Under the pieces are notes generated by a model. It was given only the letters and a program-made list of their open reading frames with translations. It made no database searches and had not been told where the DNA came from. The translations under genes were made by a program, and so were the position numbers. From Salinihabitans flavidus (GTDB lineage Bacteria > Pseudomonadota > Alphaproteobacteria > Rhodobacterales > Rhodobacteraceae): 64,000 bases of DNA. Positions 8,091-55,281 of this stretch are shown piece after piece; within the stretch, counting starts at the first letter, position 1; the number at the start of each line of letters is the position of its first letter. The stretch spans positions 124,001 through 188,000 of the forward strand of contig NZ_FODS01000003.1 in the NCBI RefSeq assembly GCF_900110425.1, in the 5' to 3' direction.

Positions 8091-8543
8091 ATGTCAGGCG
8101 AAAATGACCTCATCAAGCTGTATTCGGGCCGCATACTTTCGTTGGCGGCGGATATTCCCAATACCGAACGCCTCGAAAACCCCGACGCCACGGTGAAACG
8201 CCGCTCACCGCTATGTGGTTCTACGATCACGGTGGATGTGAAGGTAGAGGATGGACGGATCACTGACTACGGTCAGGACGTAAAAGCCTGCGCCCTTGGT
8301 CAGTCGGCAGCCGCGATCGTTGGGGCCCATGCCATCGGCTGCACACGCGCCCAAATCCAAGAAGCACGCGACGCACTCAAAGAGATGCTGAAATCCGATG
8401 GGCCGACGCCCCCGGCTCCCTTTGATGAACTTGAGGTTCTGCGCCCCGCGCGGGACTACAAGAACCGGCACGCCTCCATCATGCTCGCGCTTGAGGCAAC
8501 GACCGAAGCGATGGAAAAGGCCGCTCAGGAAAACTGCGCCTGA
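8091..8543 (+). CDS. NifU/IscU-like iron-sulfur cluster scaffold
   Basis: A 150-residue protein of the NifU_N family (SufU/IscU-like), expected to hold or transfer nascent Fe-S clusters. The first two conserved cysteines are in S-P-L-C-G-S-T (about residue 44) and K-A-C-A-L-G-Q-S (about 66). The position where classical scaffolds have the third Cys here reads N-R-H-A-S-I-M-L; the only other Cys is the penultimate residue. It is a monocistronic-looking gene divergent from hisI. Function as a scaffold or a carrier is uncertain. Confidence 0.85.
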   Translation: MSGENDLIKLYSGRILSLAADIPNTERLENPDATVKRRSPLCGSTITVDVKVEDGRITDYGQDVKACALGQSAAAIVGAHAIGCTRAQIQEARDALKEMLKSDGPTPPAPFDELEVLRPARDYKNRHASIMLALEATTEAMEKAAQENCA

Positions 8544-8545
8544 TC

Positions 8546-8592
8546 ACCGAAACAAAAAAACCGCCGCACATTCCAGTAGGAAAGGCGGCGGT
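8546..8592 (-). terminator. Rho-independent terminator, minus strand
   Basis: Eight base pairs (8560-8567 with 8585-8592, GC-rich ACCGCCGC/GCGGCGGT) close a 17-base loop. On the minus strand the stem runs into a run of seven Ts. The plus side has no T-run, so it ends leftward transcripts: the 40-aa SOS ORF and perhaps ligA-recG. Confidence 0.85.
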
Positions 8593-8731
8593 CAGTGTTG
8601 CGTTCCGGGACAGGCCGACGGATGCGATGGGGGAGAGTGAGGCAGACCCCCAAGGACTTCGGGACAGGCAGTGTCAGTCTCAGCGCATCGGTTGGGACAG
8701 GATGCAGCGATCCCGGAACGCAGGCAGGTCT
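8593..8731 (-). ncRNA. structured 3' region or possible small RNA
   Basis: Between the 40-aa ORF and its terminator lies a 12-base perfect inverted repeat, TGCGTTCCGGGA (8599-8610) with its complement at 8711-8722, closing about 100 bases. The minus strand also shows CCTGTCCC three times (plus-strand GGGACAGG at 8607, 8661 and 8694) and a six-pair G/C hairpin inside. It may be a 3' UTR element or a processed small RNA of about 170 bases. I do not recognise a known family. Confidence 0.35.
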
Positions 8732-8854
8732 TCAGGATAATCCTGGCAAATGCAGTGCGACGACAAGAAGAACCATCAACGCCACCCCCCCAAGCACATC
8801 CTGCACAAGATGGGGTTGGGCGTTTCGGATCACGCTACGAAACTGTGTAAGCAT
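8732..8854 (-). CDS. 40-aa single-span membrane peptide, SOS box upstream
   Basis: An ORF of 40 residues beginning M-L-T-Q-F-R-S-V-I-R. It has a polar N-terminus with several Arg, an H-L-V-Q-D-V linker, then a hydrophobic stretch G-G-V-A-L-M-V-L-L-V-V-A-L near residues 22-34 and a short H-L-P-G-L-S tail. AGGAGG sits 5 bases before the ATG, the best Shine-Dalgarno in the neighbourhood. A perfect GAAC-N7-GAAC SOS box lies 66-80 bases upstream, and a strong terminator follows. The size, single membrane span and SOS control parallel Caulobacter SidA and E. coli TisB in design, not in recognisable sequence. Function is inferred only. Confidence 0.75.
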   Translation of the reverse strand: MLTQFRSVIRNAQPHLVQDVLGGVALMVLLVVALHLPGLS

Positions 8855-8884
8855 TATGGCCTCCTGCACTCAATCCTGTAAGTT

Positions 8885-8910
8885 GCCTCTTTGTTCTCAT
8901 TTTTAGAGGC
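8885..8910 (-). other. leader hairpin before the 40-aa ORF
   Basis: GCCTCT (8885-8890) pairs with AGAGGC (8905-8910) around a 14-base loop in the presumed 5' UTR of the small ORF. It could be a leader structure or a weak recG end signal; there is no T-run. Confidence 0.4.
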
Positions 8911-8919
8911 ACCTGTAAA

Positions 8920-8944
8920 GAACTTTTTAGGAACATTTGAGAAC
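8920..8944 (-). promoter_or_regulatory. LexA SOS box, triple half-site
   Basis: Plus strand reads GAAC (8920-8923), seven bases, GAAC (8931-8934), six bases, GAAC (8941-8944). On the minus strand this is GTTC-N7-GTTC, the LexA site known from Rhodobacter and other alphaproteobacteria. A possible core promoter, TTCGCT-N17-TAAAAA on the minus strand, overlaps it. It sits between the recG stop and the 40-aa membrane peptide. Confidence 0.75.
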
Positions 8945-8962: not shown

Positions 8963-13191
<4,229 letters not shown>

Positions 13192-55171: not shown

Positions 55172-55281
55172 AGACACTCATGTTGGCAGGGCTCGTTGCA
55201 CTGCTCGCCGGGTGCGCCACGATCGAGGGTGTGGGGCACGACATCTCTGGCGGGGCACGCACCGTTCAGGGCTGGTTCTGA
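55168..55281 (+). CDS. entericidin-like small lipoprotein
   Basis: A 37-residue lipoprotein. The signal is M-K-T-L-M-L-A-G-L-V-A-L-L-A-G-C with lipobox L-A-G-C (Cys16), then A-T-I-E-G-V-G-H-D-I-S-G-G and a short end in W-F. The G-x-G-x-D-I-x-x-G-G pattern is that of the entericidin A/B family. Its ATG overlaps the binding-protein TGA, so it is translationally coupled. In E. coli entericidins form a stress-regulated toxin/antidote lipoprotein pair; here only one is present. Confidence 0.85.
   Translation: MKTLMLAGLVALLAGCATIEGVGHDISGGARTVQGWF

Follow-up and report, generated by a model that had tools for sequence, protein, structure and literature searches.

A putative LexA-controlled membrane peptide gene with a structured 3'UTR RNA behind recG in Rhodobacteraceae

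Introduction

SOS division inhibitors are known from a few model bacteria. Among the Alphaproteobacteria, SidA of Caulobacter crescentus is a 29-residue SOS division inhibitor (PMC4211646, PMC12700426). YneA, SosA, and ChiZ are SOS-controlled single-span division inhibitors (PMC13396833, PMC6851548); the transmembrane helix of YneA binds TM7 of FtsW, and the same authors predict, at low confidence by their own account, that SidA, SosA, and ChiZ also contact FtsW (PMC13396833, PMC6851548). Unrelated small SOS membrane proteins of other bacteria block division, several of them via FtsW (PMC4211646, PMC12700426, PMC13396833, PMC6851548). TisB and DinQ of Escherichia coli are LexA-controlled membrane peptides of 27-29 residues (PMC3567139). 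Finally, Pos19 of Rhodobacter sphaeroides, which is under RpoE, combines a small ORF and an RNA structure on one transcript (PMC5036791).

The Rhodobacteraceae, to which the roseobacters, Rhodobacter, and Paracoccus belong, form a large family of ecological importance. No SOS effector of such kind was found described for this family in the libraries and papers searched. Here, we analyze a locus of Salinihabitans flavidus that a preliminary description, made from the sequence alone, had proposed to encode one.

Locus Organization

The window is the 64,000-nucleotide stretch of S. flavidus DNA that was analyzed. It contains a short transcription unit on the minus strand, 28 nt past the stop codon of recG (8963..11053, minus strand, recognized as an ORF), the upstream neighbor and synteny anchor. 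The unit, all of it on the minus strand, opens with an extra GTTC half-site (8941..8944), followed after N6 by the main LexA box GTTC-N7-GTTC, GTTCCTAAAAAGTTC (8920..8934, GAAC-N7-GAAC on the plus strand). The box is abutted by TTTACA (8914..8919), a probable -35 element, and at a fixed distance downstream lies the conserved element TGAGAACAAAGAGGCAAC (8882..8899), probably an extended -10/start region. Next come a Shine-Dalgarno sequence AGGAGG (8860..8865), an AGGA/GGAG-type site preceding nearly all homologs, and an ORF of 40 codons plus stop (8732..8854, ATG at 8854), MLTQFRSVIRNAQPHLVQDVLGGVALMVLLVVALHLPGLS. The ORF is followed by a structured 3'UTR RNA of about 135 nt (8597..8731) and an intrinsic terminator, ACCGCCGC...GCGGCGGT (8554..8592), an inverted repeat forming a GC-rich hairpin (8592-8560) ahead of a T run (8559-8554). 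A terminator-like structure was seen in 157 of 163 relatives. Beyond the terminator, a convergent gene (8091-8543, plus strand) and then hisI are located.

All parts listed in the preliminary description, namely the SOS box, a third half-site, the ribosome site, a 40-codon ORF with one membrane span, and a strong terminator, were found, the terminator lying outside the coordinates given there. Two conserved elements came in addition to that list, the structured 3'UTR RNA and a second, imperfect LexA site: the inverted box GAAC-N7-CAAC (8896-8882, minus strand) within TGAGAACAAAGAGGCAAC, to which LexA is presumed to bind.

Promoter and LexA Control

Taken singly, the GTTC-N7-GTTC box occurs at chance level: the window holds two matches vs. 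1.7 expected, and the genome 95 vs. 85 for a reversed control pattern. The other match of the window is at 55264-55278, its presence being in line with the chance expectation. In contrast to the single box, the whole module recurs with fixed spacing as GTTC-N6-GTTC-N7-GTTCTTTAC-N15-TGAGAACAA-N5-CAAC. The core pattern GTTCTTTAC-N12..18-GAACAA-N5-CAAC was found in 166 of 296 Rhodobacteraceae genomes, once per genome among the matches listed, and its reversed-pattern control gave one match. In the promoter logo, GTTCnCAAAT-GTTCtcAAAAA-GTTCTTTAC-N15-aTGAGAACAAAgnGgCAACA, the spacing is fixed, including that between the main box and the downstream element; the extra half-site is about 90% conserved at the N6 spacing (88-94% for each base), and TTTAC is 87-100% conserved per base. 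When named genomes were scanned with the promoter only, using no peptide information, all matches among those listed carried Rhodobacteraceae or higher-rank metagenome labels.

The source genome contains LexA; SulA (PF03846) had no match in it. With a GTTC-N7-GTTC operator placed in the promoter and conserved among relatives, the tiny gene is very probably controlled by LexA, the DNA-damage repressor. The inverted box of the second element probably overlies the extended -10 and the start, and LexA might sit on both boxes at once. If both were occupied, repression would be tight, as expected of a growth-arresting product.

Distribution of the Locus

Promoter and peptide are coupled. In total, 164 pooled loci contain both box and ORF, with recG directly upstream in 160 of them, and all complete promoter loci examined encode the peptide. 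Four loci had no ORF found; two of these end at contig edges, and in the other two the peptide has 31 residues (one of them reads MTREFIHDLVGIAALTVTTVIVLWLPAILQA). The peptide is also held by locus L109. A search with a single peptide sequence gave matches in most Rhodobacteraceae genera sampled; a profile of 26 sequences matched 278 of 296 Rhodobacteraceae genomes at E<=1 and about 257 at E<=1e-3. The peptide family is present in about 87% of the genomes of the family. The remaining ~13% have no confident homolog, and most of them have LexA.

In a class-wide sample of 289 alphaproteobacterial genomes, real matches to the peptide profile were confined to Rhodobacteraceae; one further weak match fell within an open frame of 290 residues. 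Neither the box nor a membrane sORF was found behind recG in 28 genomes from other families of the class, and a broader alphaproteobacterial synteny was rejected.

Two side observations concern the margins of this distribution. First, among 39 genomes in which no peptide was identified with confidence, 8 (G033, G083, G146, G219, G257, G008, G029, and G191) lacked a match to the LexA DNA-binding domain, vs. 0 of 16 with the peptide; since several of these genomes are incomplete, a joint loss of peptide and LexA is only hinted at. Second, Paracoccus-type loci (L155, L178, L209, L097, and G023, the last being L210) keep the promoter and have a shortened or altered peptide of 31-43 residues that ends in LWLPA.

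The Peptide

According to the preliminary description, ORF, AGGAGG, and SOS box should be conserved together in Rhodobacteraceae, the frame should change mostly by synonymous substitutions, and the gene should be undescribed. The comparison bears out the first two points, the joint conservation extending to the fixed promoter spacing, and the searches given below agree with the third. Among 83 pairs with 72-99% nucleotide identity, dN/dS was below 1 throughout, with a median of 0.20, and the information per codon position was 0.78/1.21/0.44 bits. The peptide is under purifying selection. In 117 distinct 40-codon ORFs, D19 and G22 are invariant, and L26, L30, L34, and P37 nearly so.

A 19-mer with hydrophobicity at transmembrane level is present in 162 of 163 sequences; the flank on the N-terminal side of this helix has a median net charge of +1, and the last 20 residues are uncharged, again in 162 of 163. 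An AlphaFold model computed with 93 sequences has predicted helices 3-11 and 14-39, with a mean pLDDT of 82. Along the transmembrane helix, conserved positions recur most strongly with a period of 100 degrees per residue (p=0.005), and the hydrophobic moment of this part is low. The uncharged transmembrane helix has one conserved face (D19, G22, L26, L30, L34, and P37). This one-sidedness suggests a specific helix-helix contact and not a charged pore or an anchor that faces the lipids, and the conserved face may serve for docking on a specific partner.

As for known families, the peptide has no match in Pfam (SulA PF03846 included) or NCBIfam, no PADLOC defense family matches it, and a sequence search of the structure library gave nothing meaningful. 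PHROGs gave only scattered sub-significant matches, and, with no tblastn match either, a phage or plasmid origin was rejected. The passages found on Dinoroseobacter LexA and on small RNAs of Ruegeria and Rhodobacter do not mention the locus, and no paper describing the gene was found. "Undescribed" therefore means absent from the sources searched, a scope that excludes subscription papers and RefSeq annotation.

The Structured 3'UTR RNA

The ~135-nt 3'UTR is well supported as a covarying structured RNA, in which a long closing stem encloses three hairpins with predicted exposed CUGUCCC/CUGCCU loops (in the window CUGUCCC, CUGCCUGUCC, and UGCCUC). Several lines of evidence bear on it. First, the 3'UTR of the window folds with z=-4.7. 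Second, CTGTCCC is found in 108 of 158 3'UTRs vs. 0 of 157 recG-coding controls; there are 3.2 CTGYCY motifs per 3'UTR, compared with 0.5 after dinucleotide shuffling, and their probability of being unpaired is 0.72 vs. 0.49 for other pyrimidines. Third, an alignment-free test gave a probability of 0.80, vs. 0.23 in shuffles, for pairing between the end of the element and the segment that follows the first CUGCC motif; the difference went the expected way in 123 of 127 sequences, which supports the closing stem. Finally, a covariance model built from 13 sequences, the window sequence not being among them, matched the window at E=1.6e-9; across 85 sources it yielded 66 matches at E<0.1, consistently behind the peptide. 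In these 66 matches, 27 of 28 pairs changed on both sides, with 363 double-change cells vs. 109 after shuffling; the covariation score was 0.45 vs. 0.15 for shuffled alignments and <=0.095 for slid structures. Having been fitted to the structure, the 66-sequence alignment is biased in its favor, but RNAalifold, predicting a structure of its own on that alignment, recovered 17 of the pairs, and the result of the alignment-free test is in agreement.

Under strict filters, 56 of 149 genomes had a match to the RNA. It appears reduced in Paracoccus-like loci, where a hairpin loop CGCCUGU follows the peptide, and absent in locus L013. Some lineages thus retain the peptide with a reduced RNA or none, which makes the peptide the more constant product.

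The region of the window had no covariance-model match in Rfam 15 at E<=1. In six relatives, Rfam gave only sub-threshold matches to Ysr141, which lie in the recG portion of the loci, away from the 3'UTR RNA. These weak matches to a Yersinia sRNA model (L040:18-272, L031:87-346, L003:2756-2987), far below the gathering score and on the strand opposite recG, probably reflect recG sequence similarity rather than an RNA. Covariance-model searches gave no convincing second copy of the RNA elsewhere. Pairing of the 3'UTR in cis with its own ribosome site was rejected, as the 5'UTR and 3'UTR of the same locus paired no more strongly than swapped ones. Identity with the 67-nt sRNA UdsC (RSP_7527) was also rejected, since UdsC is RpoHII-dependent and much shorter.

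Discussion

The gene, its operator architecture, coding selection, transmembrane helix, and structured 3'UTR are well supported by the sequence comparisons. By analogy with the described systems, the peptide gene probably serves to halt the cell in an emergency, most likely at division. The explanation that we favor, and to which we give about an even chance, is a LexA-controlled SOS membrane peptide acting as a division checkpoint in the manner of SidA or YneA, possibly on a dual-function RNA. We infer the damage induction, topology, partner, division block, and role of the RNA, as follows. In the absence of DNA damage, LexA would sit on the GTTC boxes that cover the -35 and start regions and keep the promoter shut. 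Upon damage, RecA would trigger LexA cleavage, and the promoter would open to give a transcript of about 340 nt, with its start expected near the GAGAACAAAG element. The first product would be the peptide of about 40 residues, inserted in the inner membrane N-in/C-out. Its conserved helix face would dock on a membrane partner, the likeliest being the septal peptidoglycan synthase complex (FtsW/FtsI/FtsN), and division would be delayed until the DNA is repaired, as by SidA in Caulobacter and YneA in Bacillus. The 3'UTR RNA could make the messenger more stable or, like Pos19, work in trans.

The division-checkpoint reading is favored by the coupling of a LexA-type promoter to the peptide, purifying selection, the predicted helices, with a hydrophobic span that lacks charge in the last 20 residues and has a positive N-terminal flank, the conserved helix face, the presence of LexA and absence of a SulA match, and the division block exerted by unrelated small SOS membrane proteins of other bacteria. 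Against it stand the lack of the locus behind recG in the 28 genomes of other families and of a confident homolog in ~13% of the family, most of which have LexA. Also against it, YneA requires a LysM domain besides the transmembrane helix, and the peptide has no LysM.

A reading compatible with this explanation, and a possible though tentative one, is that the transcript is also an SOS RNA whose CUGUCCC/CUGCCU loops pair with mRNAs or bind a protein in trans, as in RNAIII and Pos19. A conserved RNA structure does stand beside the ORF, with strong covariation, motif enrichment and loop exposure, an alignment-free closing stem, and no Rfam family, and coding sRNAs are known in Rhodobacteraceae (Pos19). 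However, an exact search of the genome itself for the complement of the H2 loop gave 15 matches, including the gene itself, none of them a convincing target; the RNA, not being kept in all peptide-bearing lineages, is not the constant product; and a role in stabilizing or processing the messenger would likewise explain the structure. The site upstream of Hsp20 (L216) had no match to the RNA model. In its widest form, this would give Rhodobacteraceae an undescribed SOS transcript with two functions, found throughout the family: a single RNA under LexA control combining a division-checkpoint membrane peptide with a new structured RNA class that rewires expression in trans during DNA damage through several exposed CUGYCY motifs; we put this forward with some reserve.

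The peptide could instead modulate another membrane protein during DNA repair, such as a transporter, a membrane protease, or the respiratory chain, and not division. Small single-span proteins often modulate larger ones, and the conserved face does not name its partner; yet small membrane proteins induced in the SOS response act recurrently as division inhibitors, and we consider this alternative somewhat unlikely.

A toxin that depolarizes the membrane and drives dormancy during SOS, like TisB or DinQ, would share the LexA-type control, small size, and single membrane span, TisB and DinQ being SOS-controlled peptides of similar size. TisB, however, is charged and amphipathic, and the peptide has no charged amphipathic membrane helix, its last 20 positions being uncharged in nearly all sequences and its transmembrane hydrophobic moment low. 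In addition, no antisense antitoxin was recognized, a simple scan of the opposite strand giving no promoter-like site for an antisense RNA, and the one-sided conservation suggests a specific partner. Such a toxin is unlikely. Lastly, a chance box beside a non-coding ORF, which the chance-level frequency of the single box might suggest, is refuted by the comparative data and has a negligible probability, the composite module being far above chance and the family-wide fixed-spacing promoter, reading frame, dN/dS, and RNA structure all being conserved.

The locus is a strong family-wide candidate for an SOS effector: its promoter is defined, the helix face is conserved and open to mutation, and the covarying RNA structure can be examined independently of the peptide. 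Should the RNA act in trans, the SOS response of Rhodobacteraceae would gain a post-transcriptional arm.

Among described RNAs, Pos19 and RNAIII resemble this locus in having a small ORF and RNA structure on one transcript, and RNAIII of Staphylococcus has C-rich loops, as does the 3'UTR RNA. The fold differs, however, and Pos19 is under RpoE, whereas the gene described here has a LexA-type promoter. The Cuckoo RNAs and CcsR of Rhodobacter sphaeroides, which have the loop motif CCUCCUCCC, are likewise Rhodobacteraceae RNAs with pyrimidine-rich loops and an adjacent small-protein gene; the 3'UTR RNA lacks CCUCCUCCC loops and instead presents CUGUCCC/CUGCCU in a closed multibranched fold. Among described peptides, TisB and DinQ are similar in LexA-type control and membrane location and differ by the charged transmembrane face. 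YneA, SosA, and ChiZ have larger extracellular parts (with LysM in YneA and ChiZ), whereas the peptide is almost only a membrane helix. SidA shares with it the alphaproteobacterial origin, GTTC-N7-GTTC control, and a very small single-span peptide, the Paracoccus-type version having 31 residues. It differs in that the peptide is unseen behind recG outside Rhodobacteraceae and comes with an N-terminal helix and a structured 3'UTR. Contact with FtsW and a division block would be shared with SidA by analogy. Of the two models named in the preliminary description, the SidA-like one fits the sequence better than the TisB-like one.
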